A stretch of 64,000 bases of DNA, from contig PLET01000125.1 of the NCBI GenBank assembly GCA_003137095.1, positions 62,001 to 126,000 of the forward strand, in the 5' to 3' direction. Below, piece after piece: positions 10,542 through 32,749 of the stretch. A model generated the notes under the pieces. That model did not search any database, had not been told where the DNA came from, and saw only the letters and a list, made by a program, of their open reading frames with translations. Source of the stretch: Gammaproteobacteria bacterium (lineage in GTDB: Bacteria; Pseudomonadota; Gammaproteobacteria; Steroidobacterales; Steroidobacteraceae). Numbering within the stretch: position 1 is the stretch's first letter; the number at the start of each line of letters is the position of its first letter. Position numbers and translations under genes: made by a program.

Positions 10542-10551
10542 GCCCGCGGCC

Positions 10552-15590: not shown

Positions 15591-16470
15591 TCACCTGGGC
15601 GACCGCCTGCGGCTCCTCCCAGAAAGGGTTGTGACCCAGACCCTCGAAGACCTTGACCTGCGCCGCCGGCAGGGCTTCTCGCAGGGTGGCGCGCGACTCA
15701 TCCGTCACGAGCGGATCCTCGCTGCCCCAGATCAGCAGCGCCGGTGCCTTGAGCCGCGGCAGAGTTCTGCGCAGATCGCCCATGGCCAGTCCTTGATCGA
15801 GGACCGCCAGCCATACCCGCAGCGGAATGGCCGCCGCATCCCGGCGTTGGCGCCTGATGAAATCCTCGTCGACCGGCTTGGGCGAGGACCACCAGGCAAT
15901 CATGAACGGCGAATCCGGATCCAGGGGTTCTTTGAGCTTGGCGATCTCGCCGGCGAAATCGAACGCCGGCTTCTTGGGCTGCTCGCCAGGACGCGGCCCC
16001 CCCGAGGATGAAATCAGCACCACGCGCCGCACCCGCTCGGGCCAATACTCCGCCAGAGTCTGTGTGATGATGCTGCCGAGCGAATGGCCGACGATGTCGG
16101 CGCGTTCGATATGCAGCGCATCCAGCAGCAGTTTGATGTCGTAGGCGAAGTCGAGACGCGTGTAGCAACACTCCGGTTTGTCCGAGCGGCCATGGCCACG
16201 GATATCCACCAGGATGATGCGATGCTGCCCGGACAAATAGGGCAGCAGGGGCGCCCAGTCGCGTGCGTTGTCGGTGAATCCGTGGATCAGCACCACGGGC
16301 GATCCCTTAGGGTCGCCGGTATCGATGTAGGCCAGGGTCATGCCGTTCGACAGGGTGCGGGTTTTCTTCAGCGCTTCGAAGGCATCCAGGTCGATCTTGA
16401 GGGGCGGCGCCGCCTGCGCGGCGAGGGTGATGAAGGTCATGGCTAGCAGCAGCTGGGTCTTCCACATCAT
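15565..16470 (-). CDS. Exported alpha/beta hydrolase
   Basis: A 301-aa alpha/beta hydrolase with a signal peptide (about residues 1-20). The oxyanion-hole segment LIHGFTDN is at 61-68, the nucleophile elbow VGHSLG has Ser at about residue 130, and the C-terminal GHNPFWEEP carries the catalytic His. An adjacent Cys pair (KPECCY, residues 101-102) is shared with the paralogue at 48024-48947. Substrate unknown. It is the last gene of the long minus-strand run that begins with the TonB receptor at 24895, with its ATG overlapping the stop of the transporter gene (ATGA). Confidence 0.85.
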   Translation of the reverse strand: MMWKTQLLLAMTFITLAAQAAPPLKIDLDAFEALKKTRTLSNGMTLAYIDTGDPKGSPVVLIHGFTDNARDWAPLLPYLSGQHRIILVDIRGHGRSDKPECCYTRLDFAYDIKLLLDALHIERADIVGHSLGSIITQTLAEYWPERVRRVVLISSSGGPRPGEQPKKPAFDFAGEIAKLKEPLDPDSPFMIAWWSSPKPVDEDFIRRQRRDAAAIPLRVWLAVLDQGLAMGDLRRTLPRLKAPALLIWGSEDPLVTDESRATLREALPAAQVKVFEGLGHNPFWEEPQAVAQVINRFLDPP

Positions 16471-17811: not shown

Positions 17812-18714
17812 CTAGTGGGTGGGATGCACCGGGATGAACACCGGTCTCAGTAAATAGCGGACAACCAGTTCGAAATAGCCGCGGTAGATGAAATGGCCGT
17901 TCTCCTCCAGGAGCCGCGTTTTGTTCTCGCGGTAATATCGCGGTATGTCGTACCAAGGCATGGTCGGATACAGGTGATGCGCGACGTGCAGGTTGTTGTT
18001 GAGAAACAGTAGACCGAACACGAGGTTCGATTCCACCGAGGCGATGCGCTCGGTGGGATTCGGCGCCGCCCGATGCTCGATGAAGGCCCGCAGCAGACCC
18101 AGGCTCATGCCGGGATAGGCCACCAGCAGGCAATACTGCCACGCGGGAAAGCCGCAGATCCCGGAAACGAACCAGAACAAGACGGCGAGCGCGACCCCAT
18201 GCACGGCCCAGTGCGGCAGATGGCTGAAATCGCGCTCGCGCAGCCGGCGGGCCTCGCGGGCGAGCAGGCCCCACAGCCGCAGCGGCGGCCCGATGATCAT
18301 CCGCCCCGCGAGGGTTTGATTGACGATCAGGAGCGTGCGGTGCAAGCGGCCCATCCGCTGCCAGTCGGCGCGTTTCACGTAATAGGATTCCGGATCCACT
18401 CCGGGCAGCGTGAGATTGACGTCCCGATGGTGGGTGCTGTGGCTCTTCCGATAGAGCGGATACGGGAACCACAGGCCGAGCGGCGGGAATACCAGCGCGA
18501 AGCGCAGCCAGGCGGGCACGCCGCGGAACGCGTGGATGGCTTCGTGCTGCAGCGAAAATTGCCAGGCCACCAAATAGGCGCCGACGGGTAGGATCAGCCA
18601 CCAGGGCAGCAGCGCGTGGTACCAGACGAGCAGGAACCAGATGCCGTAAATCGCCGCGGCCACCAGCCAGGTGGGTCCGTCGTAGCGCCGAAAAGTCAGG
18701 GCGATCGGTTCCAT
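17812..18714 (-). CDS. Membrane fatty-acid desaturase/hydroxylase family protein
   Basis: A 300-aa integral membrane di-iron enzyme. The three histidine boxes are H57-EAI-H61, H92-STHH96 and HVAHH near residue 240, and several hydrophobic stretches surround them. Such enzymes desaturate or hydroxylate acyl chains, alkanes or carotenoids using oxygen and an external electron donor. No ferredoxin or reductase is nearby. Its inclusion in a run with the lyase and TauD-like genes suggests a small-molecule or membrane-lipid substrate tied to that pathway, but nothing in the sequence fixes it. Confidence 0.82.
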   Translation of the reverse strand: MEPIALTFRRYDGPTWLVAAAIYGIWFLLVWYHALLPWWLILPVGAYLVAWQFSLQHEAIHAFRGVPAWLRFALVFPPLGLWFPYPLYRKSHSTHHRDVNLTLPGVDPESYYVKRADWQRMGRLHRTLLIVNQTLAGRMIIGPPLRLWGLLAREARRLRERDFSHLPHWAVHGVALAVLFWFVSGICGFPAWQYCLLVAYPGMSLGLLRAFIEHRAAPNPTERIASVESNLVFGLLFLNNNLHVAHHLYPTMPWYDIPRYYRENKTRLLEENGHFIYRGYFELVVRYLLRPVFIPVHPTH

Positions 18715-18760: not shown

Positions 18761-19609
18761 TCAATAGGGCCGATCGCCGAGGATGGTGGCCCGATGCATC
18801 ACCCGCCGCGCCGGGCGATAGTCATCGGCCGCATAGTGCTGGGTCAGCCGATTATCCCAGAAGGCCACGTCCCCGGCGCTCCATTTCCAGCGCACCACGA
18901 ACTCCGGTTTCGCCGAGTGCACATACAGGAAGTTCAGAAGCAGGCGGCTTTCCGCGGCCGACAGCTCATTGATGTGCGTGGTGAATCCATCGTTGACGAA
19001 AATCCCCTGCCGGCCGGATTCCGGGTGGGTGCGCACCACCGGATGGGATACCGGCGGGTTCGTGCGTTTCGCCTCCTCGAGGCGTTCGCGTGCCTGCGCT
19101 GTCAGCCCGAACCGCTCGACCGGAAACGAATGGGCGATGAAATGCGTGGCGGTCAAGCCGCGCAAGAATTGCTGCATGGGCGCGGAGAGCGCCTCGTAGG
19201 CGGCGATGTTGCTCGACCATAGTGTGTCGCCGCCCTGCGCCGGCAGCACCTGGGCCGACAGCACCGCACCCATCGGCGGTGCGGTGGTGAAGGTCACGTC
19301 GGTGTGCCACAGCGCGTTGTCCTTAAGGTCGGTGACCTCGGTGTCGAGCACCATGATCTCGTGGGCCTCGGCGTGCTGTGGATAGATCGGATGAACGTGC
19401 AAGGGGCCGAACTGCGCCGCGAAATTGCGCTGCTCCGCCGGTGTGAGGCGCTGCTCCCGGAAAAACAGCACGTGATGCGCGGCGAGTGCATTTTTCATCG
19501 CGCGCAGCCGCGCATCGGAGAGCGGCTCGGCGATCTGCATGCCCTCCACCACCGCGCCGATGCTCGGCGTCAATGGGGTTATGGAAAGTTCCGAAGTATT
19601 GCTGATCAA
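18761..19609 (-). CDS. tauD: TauD-like 2-oxoglutarate-dependent dioxygenase
   Basis: A 282-aa Fe(II)/2-oxoglutarate dioxygenase very close in sequence to taurine dioxygenase, which hydroxylates the carbon beside a sulfonate so that sulfite is released. Iron ligands are in WHTDV (His, Asp) and MHRATILGD (His, with the 2-oxoglutarate Arg in the C-terminal segment). HPIYP and the Asn four residues before the HTD His correspond to taurine-binding positions in E. coli TauD. The start is a TTG at 19609 that overlaps the stop of the preceding gene (TTGA) and gives the normal family N-terminus. A sulfonate substrate is likely; taurine itself is unproven. Confidence 0.83.
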
Positions 19610-20463
19610 TTCGCGTGGCCGCCGCCGAACAGCTGATTGAACGCCGGATGAACGGCCGCCGCAAGTGGCCGTGCGCCCCAATAGCGCGCCGCGGCTTCGA
19701 ATTCGTTCCGCAGCCGGTCGTAATCGGCAGAATCCGGGCGCACGAAGCGCGCCAGCAGCAACTCATCCATCAGGGACCGCAGGGTGGCGTCCCGATGCGC
19801 CTGCAGGAAAGCGGCTTGCAGCGCGGCCGCGCCTGCCGAGTTCGACACCAGCGGCGGTATCGCGGTGCGGGCGGTCCTCGCCACCACCCGCGACCGCGCG
19901 CAGGACTCGGGACGGAATTTGCGCAGCAGGGCATAGGCATAGGCATCGATGGGCGCCACGTCCGCCGCACCCTCGATCACCGCGCGCAGGGCGCCGAGCG
20001 GCGTCCCGGTCGGGGCGATGATTTCCCGGTACAGGGGTTGCGCAGGGCCGGACCGCTCAGCGGCCGCGGTCATGAAATACACCAGCGCCGCTGCACACCC
20101 TGACTGGGAATCGGGCACGGTCAACGCGAGCCGTCGGCCATACGTGTCCTCGATCGAACGGAACGCGCTGTCCTCGCGCACGACCAGTTCGCTCCAGTAT
20201 TGCGGCTGGTCCGCAAAATCCGCGGGCGATGGCACCGGTGCGGCCAGCAACTGCGGCCGCGATACACTGCGCGAATAGGGCAATCCGCACATGAACACCG
20301 CACCCTTGTCGGGGCGGCGCCACAAGTCGTCGATGGCCGCGGGCGCGGCGTGCTCGACCCACTCGAGCGGAACCGCGGCAGAGCGGGCAATCGCCGCCAG
20401 CAGGTCACGCCATAAGGACGCCGCCGGCGCGCTCACCGCGTACATCCGGGCGTTGGCGATCAT
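19606..20463 (-). CDS. PhnD-like periplasmic-binding-fold protein without a signal peptide
   Basis: A 285-aa protein resembling the phosphate/phosphonate/SsuA-type substrate-binding proteins: an internal [14 protein letters not shown] segment near residue 110 and [13 protein letters not shown] near 170 are typical of PhnD-type folds. There is no export signal or lipobox at the N-terminus ([12 protein letters not shown]), and no ABC permease or ATPase gene is nearby. It overlaps the lyase gene by ATGA and the TauD-like gene by TTGA. It may be a cytoplasmic sensor or carrier for a small anion, or an enzyme built on this fold. Family assignment is moderate. Confidence 0.68.
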
Positions 20464-22319
20464 TCGTTGATATGCCGGCGATTGACCGATTCGGGCTCGC
20501 GGTTGTTGTTGGGGTAGAACTCGTCCGCCGGATGGCTGCGTATGAACTCGGCCGCGATCTCATGAATGGGTTGTTTCAGAGCCGCGGCGCCATCGCCCTT
20601 GAACGGGATGACGCCGCGAAAGGCGGTCCAGACCGAGTTCGGGGAGGAACCGAAGCGGCGGCCCGGATTCTGGCCCTTGCGCAGATCCAGCCAATAGGTA
20701 CCCGTCAGCAGATCCTCGGCCAAGAGATCAACGGTGTCGTCGACGGCCTGGCGGGCACGGCGCACCTTCAGGCGGGTCTGTGTCTGCAGATCCTCCACCG
20801 TTTGGATCAATGCATTGCCCTCCGGGGGCACCGGATTGATCAGCCCCTTGATCTCCTGCATCAGCGCGGCGGAATCGATGTCGCTGCCCTGCGATACGCC
20901 GAAACGGCCGGGCTCGCCGGGCACCTCCGGCGGCGGCGATATCACGGTGAAGAAGGTGTTGGTGAAGCGCAGCATGCGCTGCGACACCGCGATGTCCATG
21001 TTGGCGAGCGCGATGGTGAAGGCCTCGATCTGGTTGGCCATGGGATACGGGTCCCAATTCGCGTTCGAGAAAATGAATCCGTGCTTGCCGTTGCTGCGCG
21101 GGCCGCCTTTGACATAGAACTGCAGCAGCTGCGGCGAAGCCAGTTCCCAGGAATCGCCGGGCGAGGCGTCGACCCGCACGGCCGGATTATGGTCGGACGA
21201 GTTCATCTGGATCAACACGTCGTCGCGCAGTGCCGCCCAGGCCTGCCACGCGGACCCCTGTCGAATCGAAGACGCACGCAGACTTTCCGGATCCTGGATG
21301 ATGCGCTGCTCGTCGAGTTCGAACAGATAACTGCCACGCAGCATGTCGAGCACCCGTGATGCATTCCAGTTGAGCCACTTGAAGGGCCGGTTTGCCTGTA
21401 CCGGCTGCGACAGCGGCGAGATGCTGCTGTTCATGCCATTGAGGTCGATGGCGTAGGTCAGATCGGCCCAGGACAGGGCCTCGCGGGCGTCGTGAACCAG
21501 CAGCGCGGCCTGCGCCGTGGCGTAGGCGTTGGTGCTCTCCAGTTCGCTGTCATCGGCACCGAAGGGTGCGAGCGGTGCCAATCCCGCCGCCTTCAGTGCC
21601 TCGTCGGCGGACATGCGCACGCCTTGATAATAGGCGGTGCCGGCTCCCACCATGGTGGCGCCCACGTTGGTGAACGGACCGAGGTCGCCTTCTCCGACCG
21701 TGCCGCGGGATTGCACCACGGGGGTGATGCGACGGTTCAGCAGGTCGAGCAGCCGCTCTGTGAGCTGCGGGCTCGCGGCCTCGAAACTCATGGTGTTGGC
21801 GCGGATCACCAGCATGGCACGGACGATCTCCTCCTCGCCGATTTCCGGTCCGAGGCCCGCCAGCGCGCCGCGCCGGAAGATGGCCAGCTGCCGGGACTCC
21901 AGCATGGACTTGTTGGCTGGAGACAGCGGGTCACCGGTGAAGATGTATTTTTCGCGCCCGGATCCGGAGCCGCGGTTGAACCAATACACCGATACACCCT
22001 CGGCGGCGGCTTCCAGCAGCAAGCCATAGGCATCGGCCGAGCGCTGCCGGGCCTCGGGGGAGAGCGCCACCTTCGCGCCGTGACGGGCCACGTCGACCAC
22101 CTGGTCGATGCTGAGATCACGGCCCGTGAGCACGATGGTCTTGTCCGCCATGCTCACGCTGATGGGCCGGTAGGGCGGATCGGCCGCGGCGTCGGCTGTG
22201 CCGGCGGGCGCGCAGGCCGCCACGCCGACCATCAGCGCAACGATCGTTCCACTGATCGCCGGTCGCGACAGCCGTCCATCGATGGTGGGCAACACTTTAG
22301 CACCCCGAGGCTGCGTCAA
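20460..22319 (-). CDS. Exported aromatic amino acid lyase superfamily protein lacking the MIO motif, copy 1
   Basis: A 619-aa homologue of histidine/phenylalanine ammonia-lyases. The family core is clear: Y112 in VYWFN, N264, QDPESLR (342-348) and SSDHNPA (374-380). The usual Ala-Ser-Gly triad that cyclises to MIO is missing: RGTVGEGDL (205-213) has Glu and one residue fewer. Relative to P. putida histidine ammonia-lyase, the substrate His of the SHAAG segment is Ala and the QDPYSLR Tyr is Glu345. The N-terminus is an export signal with a possible lipobox, VAAC at 33-36, so it may be a periplasmic lipoprotein. Ergothionase is a MIO-independent superfamily member that eliminates trimethylamine from a betaine, so a similar lyase is my best guess. 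The TTG start overlaps the receptor stop (TTGA). Confidence 0.8.
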   Translation of the reverse strand: MTQPRGAKVLPTIDGRLSRPAISGTIVALMVGVAACAPAGTADAAADPPYRPISVSMADKTIVLTGRDLSIDQVVDVARHGAKVALSPEARQRSADAYGLLLEAAAEGVSVYWFNRGSGSGREKYIFTGDPLSPANKSMLESRQLAIFRRGALAGLGPEIGEEEIVRAMLVIRANTMSFEAASPQLTERLLDLLNRRITPVVQSRGTVGEGDLGPFTNVGATMVGAGTAYYQGVRMSADEALKAAGLAPLAPFGADDSELESTNAYATAQAALLVHDAREALSWADLTYAIDLNGMNSSISPLSQPVQANRPFKWLNWNASRVLDMLRGSYLFELDEQRIIQDPESLRASSIRQGSAWQAWAALRDDVLIQMNSSDHNPAVRVDASPGDSWELASPQLLQFYVKGGPRSNGKHGFIFSNANWDPYPMANQIEAFTIALANMDIAVSQRMLRFTNTFFTVISPPPEVPGEPGRFGVSQGSDIDSAALMQEIKGLINPVPPEGNALIQTVEDLQTQTRLKVRRARQAVDDTVDLLAEDLLTGTYWLDLRKGQNPGRRFGSSPNSVWTAFRGVIPFKGDGAAALKQPIHEIAAEFIRSHPADEFYPNNNREPESVNRRHINE

Positions 22320-24895
22320 AACTTATAGGTGAACCTCAATCCGAGCGTGCGCGGGCGGCTCACCGTGCGTGCGTCGACGAATTGATTGGGGTTCTCGTAA
22401 AGATCCGCGCGCACGTCCGTGAGGTTCTCGCCGTACAGATGCACCATCCACGCATCCTTGCCGATGCCCGCGGAGGCATCGTACTGAGTCCAGCCCGGCT
22501 GGTTGTACGCATACCCCGGCTGGTCCGGGAACGCCGTGGTGGTGCTGGCGATCGAGGAGATCGAATGCGCCTGATGCACGCCGCCCACCTGCCAGAACGC
22601 GTTGTAGCTCGCGATCGGCATCTCGTAGCGGATGCGAAGGTTCGCCTGCAGCGCCGGCGACAGGGCGAGCGGCACGCCCGGATCGCCGAATGCCCGCACC
22701 GAGGTGATCGGATTGCCGTTGACATCGTTCAGGTAGGCGACGTTGACTTGGTCGCTGCTGTTCCATGCCGCGGAAGCGTTCACCGACAGGCCGCGCACCG
22801 GGCGTGCGATGGCCTCCATTTCCACGCCGCGCACGCGGTAATTCGGCCCGTTGGCCACGAAGCTCAAGTTGCCAAAATCGGCCGGCAGGAACAGTTCCAC
22901 CTGGATGTTCTTCCAATCCTCCTGATAAACGGCGCCGTTGAATTCGAAACGATGATCCGCCCATTGGGTTTTGAAGCCGATCTCGTTGTTGACCAGCGTA
23001 TCCGGGGTGAAGGAGGGCGGCGTCTTGAAAGTATATGTCGCGGTTGTGAACTGCGTGGAGCCGCGGTTGAAGCCGCCGGGCCTGAAGCCCTGCGACCAGG
23101 TGTAATACAAGAGCACGTCGTCGGTGACCTTCCAGCTCAAATTCGCGCGGCTGCGGAATCCCGAATACGTCCTGTTGAAATTGTTGGCGGTCTCGTTGTT
23201 CGAATCGATGCCCTGGGAATTGCCATTGATCTGGTTGCCCGTGCAGGGAGGCGGTCCGTCCTCGAAGCAGCCGAAGCTGCTGGCCGAAAACCCGACCTCC
23301 GTGGTGTTGATGCGGTAGTAGCGCGTGCCCACGGTGACGGTGAGCTTCTTCGGAATGATGTCGAAGTCCGCCGAGCCGAACAGCGCCGTCTGCCGGTAGC
23401 CGCGCGTGATGTCGTCGAAGTAGGATTCATTGTCCGGACGGATGTTCGGGTTGTTCACCTGCGCGCCTGCGGGCGGGCCCACATCCGTGAGGCAGTTGAC
23501 GTCGTTGGTGGCCGTGCAGGCCGGCACCGACTTGTAGAACCAGTCGATGTTCTCGTGGATGACGTACTCCTCCCAGAACGCGCCGAAGATCCCGCGCAGA
23601 CGCCAATTATCCGGCGTGCTTAAGCGAAGCTCCTGGCTGTCGTGGGTGTTCTTCTCGGTGTCGTGCCAGAAGGCCGCCGGCGAATAGCAGGCGTTTTGCG
23701 CCGGCGTCGCGCCGGTGATGCATTGATAGTAGGCGGCATTGAAGCCGCGCGAATACGCGGTGTAATCGCCCTGCTGCTCGACGTTGCGCACCAGGTAGCC
23801 GCCCGTATAGACCAGCTTCAGATCGCCGAGATGGCCGTTGACCGTCAGCGCCGTGTTCTCGAAGCTGTCGTAGTCATAGGCGGGCTCGAACAGCTGTACG
23901 GACAGGTCCGGCAGCGGCTGCTGCAGCGCGGGATCGACGCTGGAGCTGTGCGGCATTTCGTAGAACACGCCGTCCTGATGCATGGATTGATAGGACTGCG
24001 TCAGCAACGCATCCCAATCGTTGTTGATCTTGTATGCAACCGACAGCCGGATACCTTGGTATTTAACCGTGTTGATATCGTCGGCCGCCAGCAAGTCGTT
24101 GCTGATGGTGTTCACGGAGCCGGCGCCGTCGGGCACCACCCCGTTGTAACCGTAGGTCGGGCCCGCGATGCTATAGTCGCTCGCCTGCCGCGTGAAGGTC
24201 GAGGGGATGTTGTTGATGTAGCCGCCGCGCGAGTCGCTGTAGACCACGGCGCGAAGCGCCAGGGTGTCTTCGACCAGCGGCAGGTTGATCATCGCCTGCA
24301 CGTTGGCGCTCGGATCGCCGTGCGCCGTGACCTCGTAGGCGGCGCTGACATTGCCCTCGGTGACGTCGATTTTAGGCTTGTTCGTGATGTAGCGCAGCAC
24401 GCCGGATTCCGCGCCGGCTCCGAACAGCGTGCCTTGCGGGCCCTCGAGCACCTCGATGCGTTCGAGGTCGGCGGCGTACACGTCCAGGTTGCGTCCGGGC
24501 AGGGCGCCCGATTGTTCGTCCAGATAAATCGCGACGCTCGAGAAGCTGCCGACGCCGCCCGACCCCTGCGTACCCGCCAGCGTCGTCGACAGGCCGCGCA
24601 TGAAGATCGCACTCTGGCCCGGTCCGCTGCTCGCGGCGGTGACGTTCGGCAGATATTTCACGAAATCGTCGAAAGTCTGCACGTTCAGCTGGGTCAGGGT
24701 TTCCGCGGTCAACGCCTGGATGGAAATCGGCACGTCCTGCAGGTTTTCCGCGCGGCGCTGCGCGGTCACCGTGATCTCGGCGATTTGATCGGTTGACGCT
24801 TCGGTGTCCGCGGCGCCGGCCGCGAACGACGAACCGGGAGCAGCTCCGCTCAGAATCGCAGCGATCGCACACGACAATTTTTGATCAGGTTTCAC
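22316..24895 (-). CDS. TonB-dependent outer-membrane receptor, copy 1
   Basis: An 859-aa receptor with a signal peptide (residues 1-25), a TonB-box-like EITVTAQRR, a plug domain (about 45-190, with the RIEVLEGPQGTLFGAGA segment) and a beta-barrel ending in the C-terminal aromatic RFTYKF. It would import a substrate into the periplasm using TonB energy. Its GTG start at 24895 follows an AAGGGG ribosome site, and its stop overlaps the lyase start, so receptor and lyase are translationally linked. The closest relative in the window is the receptor at 27441-30026, which is beside the second lyase. Barrel loops contain several Cys pairs that may form disulfides. Substrate unknown. Confidence 0.92.
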   Translation of the reverse strand: MKPDQKLSCAIAAILSGAAPGSSFAAGAADTEASTDQIAEITVTAQRRAENLQDVPISIQALTAETLTQLNVQTFDDFVKYLPNVTAASSGPGQSAIFMRGLSTTLAGTQGSGGVGSFSSVAIYLDEQSGALPGRNLDVYAADLERIEVLEGPQGTLFGAGAESGVLRYITNKPKIDVTEGNVSAAYEVTAHGDPSANVQAMINLPLVEDTLALRAVVYSDSRGGYINNIPSTFTRQASDYSIAGPTYGYNGVVPDGAGSVNTISNDLLAADDINTVKYQGIRLSVAYKINNDWDALLTQSYQSMHQDGVFYEMPHSSSVDPALQQPLPDLSVQLFEPAYDYDSFENTALTVNGHLGDLKLVYTGGYLVRNVEQQGDYTAYSRGFNAAYYQCITGATPAQNACYSPAAFWHDTEKNTHDSQELRLSTPDNWRLRGIFGAFWEEYVIHENIDWFYKSVPACTATNDVNCLTDVGPPAGAQVNNPNIRPDNESYFDDITRGYRQTALFGSADFDIIPKKLTVTVGTRYYRINTTEVGFSASSFGCFEDGPPPCTGNQINGNSQGIDSNNETANNFNRTYSGFRSRANLSWKVTDDVLLYYTWSQGFRPGGFNRGSTQFTTATYTFKTPPSFTPDTLVNNEIGFKTQWADHRFEFNGAVYQEDWKNIQVELFLPADFGNLSFVANGPNYRVRGVEMEAIARPVRGLSVNASAAWNSSDQVNVAYLNDVNGNPITSVRAFGDPGVPLALSPALQANLRIRYEMPIASYNAFWQVGGVHQAHSISSIASTTTAFPDQPGYAYNQPGWTQYDASAGIGKDAWMVHLYGENLTDVRADLYENPNQFVDARTVSRPRTLGLRFTYKF

Positions 24896-24932
24896 GCGCG
24901 CACCCCTTCTGTGTTGTTTGCCAATTCCCGAT

Positions 24933-24962
24933 CCACCGACACGCCCGCCACCGACACGCCCG
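24933..24962. repeat. Tandem 15-bp repeat, two units
   Basis: CCACCGACACGCCCG occurs twice head to tail without a gap, 38 bp upstream of the receptor start. It may be a slippage product or a protein-binding element near the receptor promoter. Confidence 0.6.
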
Positions 24963-25003
24963 CCGCAAATGCGCCGGCAACGATATCACTTGCAACACCG
25001 AAA

Positions 25004-25018
25004 AAGCACTCAGTGCTT
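25004..25018. promoter_or_regulatory. Perfect inverted repeat AAGCACT-C-AGTGCTT
   Basis: A perfect 7+7 inverted repeat with a one-base centre, 109 bp from the receptor start and 199 bp from the lyase start, is a good candidate operator for the divergent pair. Function is inferred from place and symmetry only. Confidence 0.45.
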
Positions 25019-25100
25019 GCCTGGGGTTCTCGTGATGAGGCGCTATCTTGCGCACGGCAGACCGGTGCCGGAAAACAGGTCTGCGAGCATGGCCGTGCGC

Positions 25101-25130
25101 TTGCATGTTGGTAAAGATACTTGCATGCTG
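25101..25130 (+). promoter_or_regulatory. Two direct repeats TTGCATGYTG, 20-bp period
   Basis: TTGCATGTTG (25101-25110) and TTGCATGCTG (25121-25130) are two helical turns apart, as expected for two monomers of an AraC-type activator on one DNA face. The second repeat overlaps a possible -35 box of the lyase gene. Confidence 0.4.
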
Positions 25131-25216
25131 ATTAATGATACCGTGAATACGCAGCATCGCAAATGCGACCGACGGCGGTCTCAATGCCGGTCACGCTCAA
25201 ACCCGAGGGCAACATC

Positions 25217-27043
25217 ATGAGTGAGGCGATCCGTAGCGAGGCAATGATGCGCAGGCCGTGGGCAAGGTTCATCGGCTGGATAATCGGCTGCTGGCTGGCG
25301 TCAGGCACCGCGGCGCTCGCGGCGGGCGATTATCAGCCCATCCTACCCTCCCTGTCGGATAAGACGATCACGCTGACCGGCCGCGATCTGACCATCGAAC
25401 AGCTGGTCGATGTGGCGCGCTTCGGGGCGAAGGTGCAGCTGAGTCCCGAAGCCAGGCAACGCCAGGCCGACAATCATGGGCTGCTGCTCGAGGCCGCCGC
25501 CGAGGGGATCGCTGTGTATTGGTTCAACCGCGGGGCCGGCGATCAGCGTGAGACCGTCATGTTTTCCGGCGATCCCCTGACGCCCGAAAACCGCGCGTAT
25601 CTCGAAAAGAGCCAGCTGCGGGAATTCCAGCGCGGCGCGGCCGCGGGCTTCGGACCCGAGGTCCGCGAGGAGGAGATCGTGCGCGCGATGATGGTGGTCC
25701 GGGCCAATGCGATGACCCACAACGCCCCGAGCCCGCAACTGTCGCAAATGCTGCTCGACCTGTTGAACCATCGCGTCACGCCGGTGGTGCAGTCGCGGGG
25801 CACGCTCGGCGAGGGTGATTTGGCGCAGTTGAGCAACGTCGCGGCAACCATGGTCGGTTCCGGAGACGCCTATTACCAGGGCGCGCGCATGCCGGCGGCG
25901 GCGGCGCTGGCGAAAGCGGGCCTGAGTCCGATCAAGCCGTTCGCCGCCGACACCAACGCGCTCACCAGCAGCGATGCCTACGCCACCGGCATCGCGGCGC
26001 TGGTCGTCAATGATGCACGGCGCGCCCTCGAATGGGCCGATCTGATCTATGCGATGGATCTCGACGGCATGAATTCCAGCATCACGCCGCTGAGTGCGGT
26101 GGTGCAGCGGGATCGGCAGTTCAGATGGCTGAATTGGGACGCGGCCCGTGTGCTCGACATGCTGAAGGGCAGCTACCTGTTCGCCGACGATCCGAAGCGC
26201 ATCATCCAGGATCCGGAGAGCCTGCGGGCATCCTCGATCCGCCAGGCCTCGGCCTGGGAGGATTGGGGCGCGCTGCGCGATGCGGTGGTTCTACAGATCA
26301 ATTCCTCGGATCACAATCCGGCGGTGCGCACCGATCTGTCGCCCGAGGATTCGTGGGAACTCGCCACCCCGCAAATGATGAAGTTCTACGTCAAGGGCGG
26401 CCTGAACAGCCACGGCAAGCACGGCTACATCGTCTCGAATGCCAACTGGGATCCGTATCCAATGGCCAACAAGCTGGAGTCGTTCGTCATTGCACTCGCC
26501 AACATGGACATTGCCGTGTCGCTGCGCATCGATCGCTTCAGCAATCCGTTCTTCACCCAGATCACGCCGGCACAGGTGCTGCATGCGCCGCCCGGCAGCG
26601 GTCCGGGTTTCTTTCGCCTCGGCGGGGGCGGCTTCACCCCGGTGGATTTGGAACAGGAAATCCAGAGCCTCACCAATCCCATCGCACCTTCCGGCCAGGC
26701 CATCGTGGGCACGGTGGAGGATTTGCAGGCGCAAACCCGCATCAAGGCCTATCGCGCACGCCAGGCGGTGGACACCACGTTCGATCTGTTGGCGCACGAT
26801 ATCGTGACCGCGGCCTTCTGGCTGGATGTGCGCAAGGCGCAGGACCCGGCACGGCAATTCGGTCCCGCTCCGACCGCGGCCTGGTCGGCGTTCCGCCAGA
26901 TCGTGCCATTGATGCCCGCCGCGGACGACACCTCGGTGCGTTCGCGGCCGATGATGGCAGCGGCCTTCCTGCGCGGCACTGCAGCGAGCCAGTTCTACGG
27001 CAGCTCCCCACCCATGCCCGCCGCGTCGGAAAATCGCGAATGA
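25217..27043 (+). CDS. Exported aromatic amino acid lyase superfamily protein lacking the MIO motif, copy 2
   Basis: A 608-aa paralogue of the lyase at 20460-22319, with long shared blocks over the whole length. It has a Sec signal peptide (cleavage likely after ALA at about residue 36) and no lipobox, so it is probably soluble in the periplasm. The MIO triad is again absent: RGTLGEGDL at 194-202. Y101, QDPESLR (331-337) and SSDHNPA (363-369) are kept, but the position of N264 in copy 1 is Asp253 here, a hint of different substrate binding. The ATG at 25217 has a GAGGG ribosome site seven bases upstream. A methylated-amine lyase role is inferred as for copy 1. Confidence 0.8.
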   Translation: MSEAIRSEAMMRRPWARFIGWIIGCWLASGTAALAAGDYQPILPSLSDKTITLTGRDLTIEQLVDVARFGAKVQLSPEARQRQADNHGLLLEAAAEGIAVYWFNRGAGDQRETVMFSGDPLTPENRAYLEKSQLREFQRGAAAGFGPEVREEEIVRAMMVVRANAMTHNAPSPQLSQMLLDLLNHRVTPVVQSRGTLGEGDLAQLSNVAATMVGSGDAYYQGARMPAAAALAKAGLSPIKPFAADTNALTSSDAYATGIAALVVNDARRALEWADLIYAMDLDGMNSSITPLSAVVQRDRQFRWLNWDAARVLDMLKGSYLFADDPKRIIQDPESLRASSIRQASAWEDWGALRDAVVLQINSSDHNPAVRTDLSPEDSWELATPQMMKFYVKGGLNSHGKHGYIVSNANWDPYPMANKLESFVIALANMDIAVSLRIDRFSNPFFTQITPAQVLHAPPGSGPGFFRLGGGGFTPVDLEQEIQSLTNPIAPSGQAIVGTVEDLQAQTRIKAYRARQAVDTTFDLLAHDIVTAAFWLDVRKAQDPARQFGPAPTAAWSAFRQIVPLMPAADDTSVRSRPMMAAAFLRGTAASQFYGSSPPMPAASENRE

Positions 27044-27440
27044 TTGTCGTGTTTGAGCAACGAGGCGCACGGCACGATGCCTATTTGGCATGAGCCGATG
27101 CATTTATTAGGCATCCCGGCAATCGTACTATCACCGTGATTTGGCCGCGGCGCTGCGCCGGCCGGGACCCCCGACTGCGGCCCGATACGTCCGCCGCGGC
27201 CGCTGTTGTGAAATATCCAAAAGTTCAAAAATATTTTTCAAAAATTATGGGAATTCGATCACGGGCGTGATATTCATAGCCGCAGCCGGTATTCCTCCAC
27301 AGAGAGATTTCGGCCGGAGGGATTCCAGACAATCGGTTGCACCGGCCACGGTCGGTGGCGTGAGGCGTCGCTCGCCTGGGCGCGATTTGGGTCTTGGATC
27401 ACGCGGGTCTTGCGTCTCGAATAATTTTAGGGAGAGAACA
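27044..27440. promoter_or_regulatory. 397-bp leader between lyase 2 and receptor 2
   Basis: No convincing gene. The middle (about 27205-27260) is strikingly AT-rich against the surrounding GC-rich DNA and looks like a promoter or UP-element region. It holds the palindrome AAAAATATTTTT (27227-27238) and, 20 bp downstream, ATCACG-GG-CGTGAT (27258-27271). About 170 bases of untranslated leader would separate these from the TTG start at 27441. Confidence 0.45.
27227..27271. promoter_or_regulatory. AT palindrome and ATCACG-GG-CGTGAT operator-like repeat
   Basis: The 12-bp palindrome AAAAATATTTTT at 27227-27238 lies in the AT-rich promoter-like zone, and a perfect 6+6 inverted repeat with a 2-base centre lies at 27258-27271. 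Their spacing suggests a promoter followed by an operator for the second receptor. Confidence 0.4.
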
Positions 27441-30026
27441 TTGAAGCCGAACCATAAGCTGTCTTATGCGATTTGCTCCATCCTCGGTGTCAATGGTGCG
27501 TCTGCCCTGGCGGCAGATGCGCCCGGGGAGAGTTCCGATGCGATCTCCGAGATCACCGTCACGGCCCAGCGCCGCACGGAAAACATCCAGGACGTGCCCA
27601 TCACAATCCAGGCGCTCACGGCGGAATCGCTGTCCCAGCTGAACGTGGCGACCTTCGACGATTTCGTCAAATACCTGCCCAACGTGACCACCGGCACCAT
27701 CGGACCCGGCCAGGGCAACATCTACATGCGCGGCCTGAGCACGGGCGCCGGCGGCACCCAGGGTTATGGATCCGTCGGTCAATTCCCCAATGTGGCGGTG
27801 TATCTCGACGATCAATCGACGGCACTGCCGGGCCGCAATCTCGATGTGTATGCCGCCGACATGGAGCGCGTCGAAGTCCTGGAAGGTCCGCAGGGGACCT
27901 TGTTCGGTGCGGGAGCGGAGGCGGGCGTCGTGCGCTACATCACCAACAAGCCCAAGCTCGACAGAACCGAGGGCGCGGTCACCGCCGATTACGGCACCAC
28001 CGCCCACGGCGACCCGAATTCCAAAGTGGAGGCCATGATCAACCTGCCGCTGATCCCCGACACGCTGGCGGTGCGCGCGGTGGTCTACGACGACGCCCGC
28101 GGCGGCTACATCACCAATCAGCAGAGCATTTTCCAGCGGCTGCCGACGGACTATGGCCTGGCCCATCACAACGGCGGCGTGGTCCCCACGGACAGCGTGG
28201 TGATCAACAACGACAATCTCAGCGGCCCCGCCATCAACCCGCTGACCTATCAGGGCCTGCGCGTGTCGGCGCTGCTCAAGCTCAATGACGATTGGAACGC
28301 GTTGCTGGTGCAGAGCTACCAGAACATGAACGCGCAGGGTGTGTTCTACGAGATGCCCATCGGGTCGGAGCTCACGCCGCTGCCGCCCCTGTCCGTCACC
28401 TTGTTCAATCCATCCTACGACAAGGACAAATACGAAAACACCGCGCTCACCATCAACGGCCAGTTCGGTCCTGTGAAGGCCGTGTACAGCGGTTCCTACC
28501 TGGTGCGCAACGTGGACCAGGTGCAGGATTACACGAATTACGCCCGCGGCGCGTACGGCTACTACTATCAGTGCGCGGGATACTCGAAGACCAATGCAAA
28601 CGCCGGCACCTGCTACACCCCGAGTTCGGTGTGGAAGGATCAGGAGCGCAACACCAACCAAAGCCACGAACTGCGGGCGAGCACGCCGGACGATTGGCGG
28701 ATTCGCGGCCTGCTCGGGTTGTTCTGGCAGAAACAGATCATCGAGGACGACACCCAATGGCTGTACCGCAGCGTACCCACGTGCTCGCCGACCGGCCTGG
28801 ACGTGAACTGCTATCTCAACACCCAGCCGTTCCCGGGTCAGCCGGTGTTCAATCCGTCGTCCTTCAGCCAGCCGGATCTGGGTTTCTCGGATGATTTCAC
28901 GCGGCAATACACCCAGAAAGCCGTGTTCGGATCCATCGACGTCGACATCATTCCGAAGGTCCTCACCGCGACTTTCGGCACGCGCTACTTCAACATCAAT
29001 AATTCGCAGTTTGGCGGCAACCCCGGCAGCTTCTATTGCAAGCAATTCACGCCGACCACCTATTTCGGACCCTGTCCGACCAGCGTGGAATACGGCAATC
29101 TGCTCACCGCCCAGAATACGACCTCGAGCCACAAGAGCCGGGCGAACCTGAGCTGGAAACCGACCCAGGACACCATGCTGTATTACACCTGGTCGCAGGG
29201 TTTCCGTGTGGCCGGATTCAACCGCTCCTCGCTGGCCGTGGACAAGGACGCGGCCGGGATTCCGCAATACATCACGCCGCTGTCTTTCAATTCCGACCAG
29301 CTGACCAACAACGAGTTTGGTTTCAAAACCGAATGGCTGGACCACCGCCTGCAGGTGAACGGCACGTATTACAAGGAACAGTGGAACGGCGTGCCGCTGC
29401 CGGTATTCGCCCCCGAGGATGGCCTGGGAAACCTCACTTTCGTGGTGGATGGCCCGAATTTCGTGGTCAAGGGATTCGAGCTGCAGATCGTCGGCCGCGT
29501 CGTGCAGGGCTTGACCATCCAGGGATCCGCGGCCTGGAACAGCAGCAACCAGGTCACCAATCCCAGCGTGGTCGACAACAATTGCAGCGGCGGCGTATCC
29601 GGAGGCGTGGCATTTCCAGCGAGCCCGGGATGCGGCAAGTCGCTGCCCCTGGTCACTCCGCTGTTCACACCCGTCGGCTCGCCCTTGGGCGAATCCCCGC
29701 CCTTCGAAGCCAATCTGCGCGCGCGCTATGAGTGGGCGTTCGGCGAGTACCATGCGTTCGCCCAGGTCGGCGGCTCGCACCAGGCGCATTCGTACGGTTC
29801 GTTGGCCGTCAATCCGGTGGTCATGCCGAACTGGACCCAATATGACGCATCGGTGGGCTTCACCAAGGGCGACTGGGGCTTTCAATTCTTCGGCCAGAAC
29901 CTGACCGATGTGAACGCCAGCCTGCTCACGACGTCGACCATCGGCGGATCGCTGATCACCGAGACGCCGACGCGGCCGCGGGTGCTGGGCCTGCGGTTCG
30001 ATTACCGGTTCGCCGACCTCAAGTGA
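27441..30026 (+). CDS. TonB-dependent outer-membrane receptor, copy 2
   Basis: An 861-aa receptor paralogous to the one at 22316-24895: nearly equal length, the same N-terminus (KPNHKLSY against KPDQKLSC), the same EITVTAQRR TonB-box region and plug segment RVEVLEGPQGTLFGAGAEAG, and a C-terminal beta-strand RFDYRF followed by ADLK. The start is a TTG at 27441 with GGGAGAG just upstream; earlier in-frame starts would extend into the AT-rich leader. Loops differ from copy 1, so the ligands may differ. Its last 8 bp overlap the convergent regulator gene. Confidence 0.91.
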   Translation: MKPNHKLSYAICSILGVNGASALAADAPGESSDAISEITVTAQRRTENIQDVPITIQALTAESLSQLNVATFDDFVKYLPNVTTGTIGPGQGNIYMRGLSTGAGGTQGYGSVGQFPNVAVYLDDQSTALPGRNLDVYAADMERVEVLEGPQGTLFGAGAEAGVVRYITNKPKLDRTEGAVTADYGTTAHGDPNSKVEAMINLPLIPDTLAVRAVVYDDARGGYITNQQSIFQRLPTDYGLAHHNGGVVPTDSVVINNDNLSGPAINPLTYQGLRVSALLKLNDDWNALLVQSYQNMNAQGVFYEMPIGSELTPLPPLSVTLFNPSYDKDKYENTALTINGQFGPVKAVYSGSYLVRNVDQVQDYTNYARGAYGYYYQCAGYSKTNANAGTCYTPSSVWKDQERNTNQSHELRASTPDDWRIRGLLGLFWQKQIIEDDTQWLYRSVPTCSPTGLDVNCYLNTQPFPGQPVFNPSSFSQPDLGFSDDFTRQYTQKAVFGSIDVDIIPKVLTATFGTRYFNINNSQFGGNPGSFYCKQFTPTTYFGPCPTSVEYGNLLTAQNTTSSHKSRANLSWKPTQDTMLYYTWSQGFRVAGFNRSSLAVDKDAAGIPQYITPLSFNSDQLTNNEFGFKTEWLDHRLQVNGTYYKEQWNGVPLPVFAPEDGLGNLTFVVDGPNFVVKGFELQIVGRVVQGLTIQGSAAWNSSNQVTNPSVVDNNCSGGVSGGVAFPASPGCGKSLPLVTPLFTPVGSPLGESPPFEANLRARYEWAFGEYHAFAQVGGSHQAHSYGSLAVNPVVMPNWTQYDASVGFTKGDWGFQFFGQNLTDVNASLLTTSTIGGSLITETPTRPRVLGLRFDYRFADLK

Positions 30027-31110
30027 TCGAAGCGAGGCGGCGGACCGGATCCCCGGTTCGCTGCCTCGAATCCCGGGCGGCAATCGAGGCACGCGGTTTG
30101 GTTTTGCCGCTCGAGCCGGAAGTCCCGGAACGGCGGCGATCCTGGGTCGGGGAAACCCCGAACTCGCGCTTGTAGGCGTGATAGAAGTGCGACGTCGAGC
30201 CGAAACCGCATTCGAGCGCGATGCCGATGACGGGATTGATGGTCTGGCGCAGCAGTGCACGCGCCCGTGACAGCCGGAGATTCAAATAAAACGCCTTGGG
30301 CGAGGTGCGCAGGTGTTCCCGAAACAGGCGCTCGACCTGGCGTGCGGACAGGCCGACGCAGTCCGCCAGCTGGCGCATGTCCGGCGGTTTCGCTGTGGTG
30401 CCCTCCATGAGCCGGATGATTTCCTTGAGTTTAGGACTGCCGATGGAACGGCTGGGGTTCGGCTCCAGTCGCTGATGATCCTCGCGCCGGCGAATCTGCG
30501 GATGGATGAACTGCTCGGCGACGGCCACCGCAACGCCGGGTGCAGATGCCTCGCTGACGAAATGCAGCATCATGTCGAGCGCGGCCGTGCCGCCCGAGCA
30601 GGTGAACACGCCGCGATCCACCACGTACAGCTCGCGGCTGACCTCGAGCGTGGGATGCCGCGCGCGGAACAGGTCCGCATATTCCCAGTGCACCGTGCAG
30701 CGGCGGCCGGCGAGCAATCCGGCGTCCGCCAAAATGAACGAGCCGCTGCTGATGGCGCCGATCATCGAGCCGCTGCGGGCGAGGCGCCGCAGGTGCCGGT
30801 GCATCCCGTGGCTGCGGCCGAATTGCGCCGGCTCGAGCCCCGCGCACACGATCAGCATGTCGGTCTTGCGCAGCTTGGCCAGGGACTCATGCGCCGCAAT
30901 GCCGATGCCGTTGCTGGCAGCGACCTCGCCGCCGTCGACCGATACCAGCCGCCAGTCGAACAGATGGCGTTCGCTCATCCGATTGGCCGAGCGTAGAGGT
31001 TCGATGGCGGCGGAAAACGCCATCATGGAGAACTGCGGAATCAGCAGAAACGCAATGCGCAGCGGCGCGCCGGAGCCGCCGGGCGTCGGTAAAACGTCGC
31101 TGTTGATCAT
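30019..31110 (-). CDS. GlxA-family transcriptional regulator, copy 2
   Basis: A 363-aa regulator with an N-terminal DJ-1/PfpI-like domain starting RIAFLLIPQFSMMAFSAAIE and an AraC helix-turn-helix domain (about residues 225-325, with DMRQLADCVGLSARQVERLFREH). The Cys of the amidotransferase-like domain is Ser here (AISSGSFILADAGLL), so this is a ligand sensor rather than an enzyme. A Ser/Arg-rich tail of about 40 residues is extra. It lies between the receptor/lyase cassettes and the MttB-like operon, with which it is divergent, and probably controls one or both. The start is ATG 31110, or the adjoining GTG at 31113. Confidence 0.86.
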   Translation of the reverse strand: MINSDVLPTPGGSGAPLRIAFLLIPQFSMMAFSAAIEPLRSANRMSERHLFDWRLVSVDGGEVAASNGIGIAAHESLAKLRKTDMLIVCAGLEPAQFGRSHGMHRHLRRLARSGSMIGAISSGSFILADAGLLAGRRCTVHWEYADLFRARHPTLEVSRELYVVDRGVFTCSGGTAALDMMLHFVSEASAPGVAVAVAEQFIHPQIRRREDHQRLEPNPSRSIGSPKLKEIIRLMEGTTAKPPDMRQLADCVGLSARQVERLFREHLRTSPKAFYLNLRLSRARALLRQTINPVIGIALECGFGSTSHFYHAYKREFGVSPTQDRRRSGTSGSSGKTKPRASIAARDSRQRTGDPVRRLASIT

Positions 31111-31136
31111 CACGAGGTCGTATTCCCAGGAAGGCG

Positions 31137-31209: not shown

Positions 31210-32745
31210 ATGGATATCAACCGCCGGCGCCAGGGCGGGCGCGGCAGACGGCTGGTGGGAAGCCACCTGCCGCAGCTGCCGTGGGCCGAGGTGAACAATC
31301 CGTACCCGCCTATGGAGCTGTTGTCCGCGGATCAGGTGGAGGCCATTCATCTGACGTCGCTGCGCATCCTCGAGGATCTCGGCATGGAAGTGATGTCGCC
31401 GCGGGCACTGGCGCTGCTCAAGACCGCGGGCGCCGACGTGGATCCGGCAACGCAGATGGTGCGTGTGGATCGCGGCCTGGTCGATGCCGCCCTGCGCCGG
31501 GCGCCTGCCGCGTTTGCGCTAACCCCCCGCAATCCGGCCAGGCAGGTGAGCATGGGGGCAAGCCGGGTCAATTTCGGCCTGGTCGCCGGTCCGCCCAATG
31601 TGCACGATTGCGAACGCGGCAGGCGCGCCGGAAATTACCAGGATTACTGCGACTTCATCCGCCTCGCCCAGTATTTCAACGTCATTCACCTGATCGGAAA
31701 TCAGGTCTGTGCACCCGTCGATCTGCCCGCCAATTCCCGCCATCTGGACACGTATCGGGCGAACCTCAAGTTTTCGGACAAGGTTTTTCATTGCACCGCC
31801 ATCGGCGCCGGACGCGCACTCGACGGCATCCGGATGATGGCGCTGGCGCGCGGCATCTCGCTCGAGCAGATCGCCGCCAGCCCCGGCGTCATCACCATCA
31901 TCTCGGTGAACAGCCCGCGGCGATTCGACCAGGCCATGAGCGAAGGACTGATCGCCATGGCGGAGCACGGCCAGGCGGTGGTCATCACGCCGTTTACGCT
32001 GATGGGTGCCATGGCACCGGTGTCGCTGGCGGCGGCGCTCGCGCAACAGAATGCGGAGGCGCTGTTCGGGGTGGTTCTCGCCCAGGCGGCGCGGCCGGGC
32101 AGCCCGGTGATGTACGGCGCCTTCACCTCGAATGTGGACATGCGCTCCGGAGCGCCCGCGTTCGGAACACCCGAGAACGCCAAGGCGAACATCGCGAGCG
32201 GCCAATTGGCGCGCCGCTACCGGCTGCCCTACCGCACCTCCAACGCCAGCGCTTCCAACGCGGCCGACGCGCAGGGCGCCTACGAGACCGAGATGTCCCT
32301 GTGGGGCGCCATTCTCGGCCATGGCAATCTCGTCTATCACGCCGCCGGCTGGCAGGAAGGCGGCCTCACCGCCTCGTACGAAAAGCTGGTGCTCGACGTG
32401 GAGATGCTGCAGATGATGATCGAGTTCCTCAAGCCCATCGTGGTCGATGAGCAGGAACTCGGCTTCGAAGCCATCCGCGGCGTACCCACCGGCGGGCACT
32501 TCTTCGGGGAACCGCACACCCTGCATCGCTACGAGCATGCGTTCTATCGGCCGCTGGTGTCGAATTGGCAGAACTACGAGAATTGGCAGCTCGGCGGCGG
32601 CCGGGACGCGACGCAACGGGCCACGGGGATCTGGAAACAGGCACTCGACGACTATTCACAGCCGCCGATGGACGCCGCCGTGAGCGAGTCGCTCGATGCC
32701 TACGTCGAGCAGCGCCGCGCCGAGATCGGCGCCGGGGAGCCTTAG
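31210..32745 (+). CDS. MttB-superfamily (trimethylamine/betaine) methyltransferase, non-pyrrolysine
   Basis: A 511-aa member of the COG5598/MttB family. Archaeal MttB uses pyrrolysine, encoded by an in-frame TAG; this gene has no internal stop, so it belongs to the non-pyrrolysine group, which includes glycine betaine methyltransferase MtgB. Members transfer a methyl group from a quaternary or tertiary amine to a corrinoid protein. No corrinoid-protein gene is in the window. The start at 31210 has a GAGGGG ribosome site. The stop is 4 bp before a dimethylglycine dehydrogenase-like gene, so betaine to dimethylglycine to sarcosine is the simplest reading. Confidence 0.86.
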   Translation: MDINRRRQGGRGRRLVGSHLPQLPWAEVNNPYPPMELLSADQVEAIHLTSLRILEDLGMEVMSPRALALLKTAGADVDPATQMVRVDRGLVDAALRRAPAAFALTPRNPARQVSMGASRVNFGLVAGPPNVHDCERGRRAGNYQDYCDFIRLAQYFNVIHLIGNQVCAPVDLPANSRHLDTYRANLKFSDKVFHCTAIGAGRALDGIRMMALARGISLEQIAASPGVITIISVNSPRRFDQAMSEGLIAMAEHGQAVVITPFTLMGAMAPVSLAAALAQQNAEALFGVVLAQAARPGSPVMYGAFTSNVDMRSGAPAFGTPENAKANIASGQLARRYRLPYRTSNASASNAADAQGAYETEMSLWGAILGHGNLVYHAAGWQEGGLTASYEKLVLDVEMLQMMIEFLKPIVVDEQELGFEAIRGVPTGGHFFGEPHTLHRYEHAFYRPLVSNWQNYENWQLGGGRDATQRATGIWKQALDDYSQPPMDAAVSESLDAYVEQRRAEIGAGEP

Positions 32746-32749
32746 AAAC

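Follow-up and report, generated by a model that had tools for sequence, protein, structure and literature searches.

Histidine, phenylalanine and tyrosine ammonia-lyases are cytoplasmic enzymes that use the 4-methylideneimidazole-5-one (MIO) cofactor and expel ammonia as the leaving group, and the known Tmm–Tdm–Dmm gene clusters take up trimethylamine or trimethylamine N-oxide (TMAO) in free form. The ergothionase of Treponema denticola (PDB 6s7j/6s7q) shares the PF00221 fold with these ammonia-lyases, carries GEGD where they have the MIO triad and has no export signal (which is not a catalytic criterion). Bacterial capture of ergothioneine is represented by a specific ABC importer, which is reported to take up the intact molecule (PMC9732360). 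Here we describe a 64,000-nucleotide stretch of a Steroidobacteraceae genome (assembly GCA_003137095.1, 4.74 Mb, 92% complete; contig PLET01000125.1, positions 62001–126000; hereafter the window), in which two genes encode exported-looking, MIO-less relatives of these lyases, each beside a gene for a TonB-dependent receptor. They are labelled lyA and lyB in this analysis, as is a third, lyC, elsewhere in the genome. We propose, with a probability of roughly 0.7, that lyA and lyB belong to the ergothionase branch and are exported trimethylamine lyases that need no cofactor, fed by the receptors with ergothioneine-type betaines. In this scheme, unlike with the ABC importer, cleavage would precede passage through the inner membrane.

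The first-pass annotation of the window had called two exported proteins of the lyase superfamily, each adjoining a paralogous receptor, and had described the lyases as MIO-less. All four genes are where it placed them (Table 1), with the PF00221 and receptor domains present, and alignment shows that a GEGD loop replaces the MIO triad in both lyases (GTVGE-GDL in lyA and GTLGE-GDL in lyB, against GSVGASGDL in the HutH of the same genome). The two lyases are 61% identical over 575 aligned positions, and the two receptors 52% identical. Inspection of candidate starts places the likely true start of lyB at 25217–25247. For the second receptor it is probably the TTG at 27441, a codon preceded by GGGAGAG that lines up with the start of the first receptor. 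The hutH model gives 159.5 bits for lyA and 175.2 for lyB, far short of its cut-off of 539, and both thus fail as MIO ammonia-lyases. The genome holds five PF00221 genes: lyA, lyB, lyC, a HutH that has the ASG triad, and a lyase in which SVGY occupies the triad site.

Export was called by a heuristic that looks for a hydrophobic stretch, K/R before it and an AxA-like site. Signal-peptide-like N-termini were found in 44 of 48 rows, lyA and lyB among them, the exceptions being L014, L039, L100 and L102; the fragments L020, L044 and L050–L052, as well as L113–L116, were left out of this count. A second branch (Sinorhizobium meliloti pSymA, Paraburkholderia and Paracoccus saliphilus) accounts for three of the 44. 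By this heuristic lyA and lyB would be exported and probably periplasmic; a possible lipobox (VAAC) in the N-terminus of lyA suggests that it may be a lipoprotein.

A single genome scan gave 56 related loci, 42 close (46–74% identity) and 14 distant (25–31%); L051/L052 and L044/L050 are probably split genes, so that the 42 may represent 40. As judged by sequence match and, for lyB, by the Foldseek E-value of a predicted structure, lyA and lyB are closer to ergothionase than to the ammonia-lyases, with which they share superfamily and fold. Among PDB sequences, lyB matches ergothionase best (6s7j, E 6.7e-41; next best 3.1e-24). Its AlphaFold2 model (34 alignment rows, pLDDT 86.5, pTM 0.86) likewise has its best Foldseek E-value with ergothionase (4.7e-28), the next being histidine ammonia-lyase (HAL; 5.0e-23). 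In the alignment, GE(G/A)D without the MIO triad occurs in 43/43 rows read from the exported family. Both lyA and lyB retain equivalents of three residues of ergothionase, Tyr53, Arg280 and Glu411 (alignment numbering), positions that we take to have catalytic roles. There are also differences from the T. denticola enzyme: identity is 23% by structural alignment, the window lyases have the signal-peptide-like N-terminal extension and a receptor neighbour, the Glu of a QDPES motif stands where ergothionase has Leu277, and the Lys of its TIQK motif is missing.

The phylogenetic tree (64 rows, leaving out the fragments L044, L050–L052, L059 and L065) recovers an exported clade of 43 rows with support of 100/100, in which lyA falls in its own 14-row clade (100/99) and lyB in a 17-row clade (99/99) that includes L033, L037 and L040. 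Set against 16 HutH/SVGY-type rows, the exported clade groups with T. denticola ergothionase and four plasmid rows (100/100, with midpoint rooting and subject to a long-branch warning). The 14 distant relatives (L053–L066), which served as outgroup and control, were considered as cytoplasmic ergothionases with Ert genes and rejected: the main lyases of L053, L054 and L055 exceed the hutH cut-off, and an A/S/C-S-G triad is present in 12/12 rows read (L059 and L065 having been dropped as fragments). L055 also carries a second, divergent lyase (6047–7627) below that cut-off.

The substrate is suggested by two sphingomonad genomes, in which relatives of lyB fill the lyase slot of the ergothioneine-utilisation (Ert) pathway (NCBIfam NF058529, NF058530, NF058538 and NF058540). 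In Sphingomonas formosensis (L040), genes for thiohydantoin desulfurase (596.5 bits, cut-off 440), thiourocanate hydratase (989.9, cut-off 930) and an MFS transporter come after that of the exported lyase, with ErtE (581.2, cut-off 520) and ErtD (763, cut-off 600) on the opposite strand, all by NCBIfam. A Sphingosinicella metagenome-assembled genome (MAG; L033) has the same set, with desulfurase (580) and hydratase (977.9) above their cut-offs and ErtD and ErtE recognised by 72 and 68% identity. These genomes hold four and two PF00221 genes, respectively, of which one in each is HutH-type by score (610 and 602 bits) and the others are of the exported type; the ergothionase step therefore has no PF00221 candidate apart from the exported lyase. 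We infer that ergothioneine is the substrate of these sister lyases; for lyB this is only likely, and lyA may use another betaine.

Trimethylamine as the product is suggested by the gene clusters of some relatives. A second S. formosensis lyase (L032/L144) comes directly after a receptor and before PurU, FolD and a FolB-like gene (by eye), with GcvT, DmmA, DmmC, HODM, a TMAO permease (846 bits, cut-off 690), Tdm (1237, cut-off 1100) and Tmm (838, cut-off 675) further on, and all of the trimethylamine and C1-folate genes lie within 13 kb of the lyase. In Sphingomonas oleivorans (L036/L145), the lyase, which is the only PF00221 gene of that genome, is accompanied by GbdR-like, soxB, soxA, soxG-sized, PurU, FolD- and FolB-like genes (by eye), and further on by GcvT, DmmA, DmmC, HODM, Tdm (1228, cut-off 1100) and Tmm (842, cut-off 675), all within 17 kb. 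Compared with known Tmm–Tdm–Dmm clusters, the secreted lyase and, in S. formosensis, the receptor gene appear to have been added upstream. Furthermore, a MAG locus whose lyase is sister to lyB (L011) has a trimethylamine dehydrogenase (TMADH) gene about 4 kb from its lyB-type lyase, 91% identical to the TMADH of the window's genome, and a gammaproteobacterial MAG (L014) has HODM, DmmC and DmmA 6–9 kb from its lyB-type lyase, with a permease truncated by the end of the locus (388.9 bits, cut-off 690). Two further candidates were rejected: a PF00724 gene of L038, considered as TMADH, is best matched by a mycofactocin-type old yellow enzyme model, below cut-off, and an FAD protein beside the P. 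aminophilus lyase matches no trimethylamine monooxygenase model.

The window's own genome has a suitable sink on another contig (C5), where TMADH (full-length match to 1djn, 1427.9 bits over residues 2–729), an Fe-S protein, ETF alpha and a permease (813.6, cut-off 690) are clustered with DmmA, DmmC, HODM and a GcvT-like gene (by eye); the organism can therefore probably oxidise trimethylamine. It was earlier supposed that the MttB and sox genes of the window serve this purpose. That idea is not supported, as the MttB-superfamily protein falls below the TIGR02369 cut-off (Table 1), and the C5 cluster is a better candidate, while the idea of trimethylamine as product survives by way of those relatives that lie near Tmm/Tdm/Dmm or TMADH genes. 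In the window itself, tblastn with the genome's own proteins (1e-15) gave no match for TMADH, the TMAO-type permease, DmmA, DmmC or HODM. A trimethylamine monooxygenase was also sought in the genome, and the only FMO-family match (45 bits, other contig) was set aside, TMADH having been found instead. Two more TMADH-like genes are present, one nearer histamine dehydrogenase and one nearer TMADH at 737 bits. Among 23 same-genus genomes, TMADH (at least 85% identity) occurs in 10: in 6/7 with a lyB-type lyase against 4/16 without (one-sided Fisher P 0.012, which counts for little as kinship is ignored) and in 8/13 with any intact lyase against 2/10 (P 0.057, kinship again ignored). No such link was seen for lyA (6/11 against 4/12, P 0.27, with the same proviso).

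The association of lyases with receptors exceeds chance in both lyA-type and lyB-type loci. A receptor lies within three genes (the window being counted throughout) in 12/17 lyA-type loci and in all four loci with a degenerate homologue (see below), as well as in 1/3 of the Ert subclade, 1/6 other alphaproteobacterial and 0/2 Solirubrobacterales-labelled loci. With 36 receptor barrels in the window's genome and an assumed 4,400 genes, about 5% of loci would be paired by chance, giving binomial P values of 8e-13 for the lyA type and 1e-4 for the lyB type; these are to be read with the caution that loci are related, some contigs end early, receptors unlike those of the window are missed, and the pairs L051/L052 and L044/L050 may each represent a single gene.

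Taken as a mechanism, the receptor, whose specificity we infer, would carry across the outer membrane an amino-acid betaine with a trimethylammonium group alpha to the carboxylate, its beta carbon bearing an aromatic or imidazole ring. The periplasmic lyase would then take the beta proton and expel trimethylamine to leave an acrylate, which would be of the thiourocanate type from ergothioneine and urocanate from hercynine. The acrylate might enter the cytoplasm through an MFS carrier such as that of the lyA run, whose homologues come after the lyase in both Ert clusters. Trimethylamine would enter separately and be demethylated by way of the TMADH–ETF–permease–Dmm cluster, its C1 units passing to folate.

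Having proposed this scheme, we would note several points that weigh against it. First, the TM-scores of the lyB model do not separate ergothionase (0.70/0.88) from HAL (0.72/0.87), so that the fold shows the superfamily only, and the TIQK Lys, which T. denticola ergothionase shares with Polaromonas and some others, is not conserved across the exported clade. Second, Ert genes accompany only 2/42 loci, and trimethylamine genes (at least 38% identity and at least 60% coverage, within the fetched flanks) only 3/42, with a fourth, L036, having GcvT inside its flanks and the rest just beyond; neither kind of gene occurs in the flanks of L037, a member of the Ert-lyase subclade. The controls, with trimethylamine genes in 0/14 HutH loci and 0/6 plasmid loci, are too small as a test because they comprise half as many bases. 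In addition, 10/14 HutH loci match the hydratase query at 45–52%, as HutU would, and one of seven other stretches of the window's genome (L140) has a TMADH paralogue at 41%, that stretch having been fetched because of this paralogue. Third, the 92% complete genome gave no match to PF06032 (the thiohydantoin desulfurase N-domain), and its sole urocanase is a canonical HutU (941.8 bits, cut-off 375; thiourocanate model 680, cut-off 930), so that no fate is known in this organism for a thiourocanate product. The ergothioneine-type substrate of the first-pass annotation is supported for the part of the family in Ert clusters, and complete ergothioneine catabolism is not supported for the window's organism, in which the models find neither desulfurase nor thiourocanate-type hydratase. 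Either the sulfur is removed otherwise, or the thio-acrylate is unused, or the lyase acts on hercynine or another betaine. A PF06032 gene was found in 1/23 same-genus genomes (G021) and set aside as an Ert desulfurase, being only 26% identical to the Ert enzyme. Fourth, 11/17 lyB-type loci are without a receptor within three genes, only 6/17 having one (two of the six by weak matches of 25 and 33% identity), and lyC-type loci have none (0/4); the receptor–lyase pairing, as earlier claimed, is sustained for the lyA type and is not universal. Finally, in four degenerate homologues of lyA the catalytic Tyr and Glu positions are gone, although the genes are kept at the conserved place, and the PhnD-, desaturase- and TauD-like neighbours of lyA are unexplained.

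That the main substrate here is a betaine other than ergothioneine comes close to an even chance. The candidates are hercynine, from which urocanate would form for HutU, ergothioneine sulfonate, from which sulfite would form, and aromatic betaines of plants or fungi such as hypaphorine. The genome, which lacks a PF06032 match, has both HutH and a canonical HutU, and lyA forms a separate clade, in which the lyase has PhnD-, desaturase-, MFS- and at times TauD-like neighbours. An ergothioneine sulfonate pathway has been published, to go by a reference title in PMC13405746, and on plasmids the desaturase-like protein has homologues in the vicinity of genes for sulfite dehydrogenase, rhodanese or sulfonate transport, although these plasmid neighbourhoods are heterogeneous. 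A Rhizobium lyase homologue comes after an acetate-CoA-ligase-family gene, but has no signal-peptide-like N-terminus. For lyB, the presence of the Ert-cluster lyases in its own clade argues the other way.

It is unlikely that the receptor neighbourhood is incidental, with the lyase substrates crossing the outer membrane by another route. The number of receptor barrels in the genome would favour coincidence, as would the sparse pairing in the lyB type and Ert clade. Against this stand the frequencies in the lyA-type and degenerate loci, far above the 5% expected, the 4-bp overlap between the lyA and receptor frames, and the receptor directly before the L032 lyase of S. formosensis.

Still less probable is that lyA and lyB act in the periplasm to bind the cargo of the receptors or to help in handling it, the lyase fold being kept and catalysis lost or minor. 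This idea draws on the four same-genus homologues of lyA (62–63% identical), which occupy a receptor–sulfotransferase block as open frames without stops, in which the Tyr position is D or E, the Gln of QDPES is P and the conserved Glu is H or R. TMADH (at least 85% identity) is found in 0/4 of the genomes with a degenerate lyase, and lyC and its relatives are also without the conserved Glu. The four may represent a pseudoenzyme lineage; lyA and lyB themselves, however, keep all of these positions, and exported relatives fill the enzyme slot of the Ert clusters, where no other candidate was seen. Exported ammonia-lyases for free histidine, phenylalanine or tyrosine, as the family-level PF00221 match and HAL-like fold might suggest, are very improbable in view of the hutH scores, the missing triad, the genome's own HutH and the trimethylamine or ergothioneine genes beside some relatives.

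To our knowledge, the fate of ergothioneine in soil is poorly known. Its producers are fungi and actinobacteria (PMC7653990), and in the open full-text literature, most subscription papers lying outside the search, no description recognisable as an exported ergothionase or a receptor–lyase pair was found. A 2026 paper states that divergent ergothionase homologues were left unaccounted for in its own survey (PMC13405746); the exported lyase family is a candidate for these. If trimethylamine is indeed made outside the cytoplasm, there would be an added environmental source of it, a molecular handle on ergothioneine turnover, and an ammonia-lyase relative at work beyond the inner membrane. Named carriers held in culture collections (S. 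formosensis and S. oleivorans) make the proposal directly testable. More tentatively, and at somewhat worse than even odds, we envisage an overlooked nutrient route of soil Proteobacteria in which outer-membrane receptors capture ergothioneine and other aromatic betaines, secreted cofactor-free lyases cleave them in the periplasm, and the acrylate (as carbon) and trimethylamine (as C1 units and nitrogen) enter by separate carriers, the lyase of one lineage having become a non-catalytic binding protein. The exported lyases are locally common and globally rare: matches at E ≤1e-100 occur in 17/23 same-genus genomes, four of these with the degenerate lyase, and phylum-wide in only 2/398 genomes including the window's own (E 1e-60).

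Table 1. Features of the window, and degenerate homologues in related loci, with coordinates, strand and supporting matches.
Feature	Coordinates	Strand	Evidence and remarks
lyA	20460..22319	-	Exported-looking MIO-less lyase, lyA clade; PF00221 313.8 bits (cut-off 27.3)
lyB	25163..27043	+	Exported-looking MIO-less lyase; PF00221 328.1 bits (cut-off 27.3)
TonB-dependent receptor, upstream of lyA	22316..24895	-	Plug + TonB_dep_Rec; frame overlaps lyA by 4 bp
Second TonB-dependent receptor	27441..30026	+	Plug + TonB_dep_Rec; mechanical open reading frame from 27141
PhnD/SsuA-like substrate-binding protein	19606..20463	-	PF12974; within three genes in 9/17 lyA-type loci, window counted
TauD-family dioxygenase in lyA run	18761..19681	-	NF007104 445.4 bits (cut-off 313); also in L022 and L112 (3 loci with window)
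Fatty-acid-desaturase-like membrane protein	17812..18714	-	PF00487; within three genes in 10/17 lyA-type loci, window counted
MFS transporter, candidate importer of lyase product	16467..17801	-	48% and 50% identical to MFS of L033 and L040
GbdR-like AraC regulator (DJ-1/PfpI + HTH)	30019..31113	-	NF052371 305.3 bits (cut-off 480): related, non-member
MttB-superfamily methyltransferase	31210..32745	+	PF06253 655.7 bits; TIGR02369 298.5 (cut-off 525)
DMGDH/GcvT-type flavoprotein (context)	32696..35176	+	GcvT and soxA models below cut-off
GbcA-type Rieske oxygenase (context)	7992..9254	+	NF058607 482.9 bits (cut-off 670)
soxB-soxA-soxG-like sarcosine oxidase genes (context)	9294..14272	+	soxB TIGR01373 676.7 bits (cut-off 529); soxA, soxG by eye
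Degenerate lyA homologues	L113 16544-18202; L114 2849-4507; L115 1029-2687; L116 10001-11659		Alignment

Judging from their coordinates, the receptor, lyA, PhnD-like, TauD-like, desaturase-like and MFS genes look like one transcription unit, in which the lyA frame also overlaps that of the PhnD-like gene by 4 bp. The left flank holds sarcosine-oxidase, DMGDH-like, PurU-like, GbcA-like and GbdR-like genes, and the right flank GbdR-like, MttB-superfamily and DMGDH-like genes (part by model, the rest by eye). The methylamine genes earlier reported on both sides are N-methyl catabolism genes of the glycine-betaine/sarcosine type. Loci L029, where soxB is also present, and L116 have a soxA gene next to a lyA-type or degenerate homologue. 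In relatives, genes for TPR-sulfotransferases recur between receptors and lyA-type lyases (for example L026, 7855–9864), and positions 58130–60136 of the window, about 28 kb from the lyases, look like such a gene. Plasmid homologues of the desaturase-like protein (L104, L105 and L107) are found close to genes for sulfite dehydrogenase, rhodanese, C-P lyase or sulfonate transport, and a link of this protein to sulfur metabolism is our guess.

Other members of the family were encountered along the way. The third exported-looking lyase of the genome, lyC (L006, 9442–11499), is 48% identical to lyB, has a GEAD loop without the conserved Glu and adjoins a gene resembling a glycoside hydrolase (by eye). 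The SVGY-type lyases (L008, 8698–10170; L108, 6509–9947) are a further type, and that of Rhizobium daejeonense (L108) comes after PhnD-like and desaturase-like genes, the same pair as beside lyA. Exported lyases on two Solirubrobacterales-labelled contigs (L042 and L043) branch off first within the exported clade, through either actinobacterial origin or misbinning. The second MIO-less branch with signal-peptide-like N-termini comprises S. meliloti pSymA (L101, 8944–10584), Paraburkholderia (L109) and P. saliphilus (L110, 10028–11716). Downstream of the S. meliloti lyase are ABC-transporter genes and a gene annotated as dimethylsulfoniopropionate lyase (L101, 13259–13927), which has no NCBIfam match at 1e-15, and the P. 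saliphilus lyase comes after hutI, hutH, hutG and hutU.

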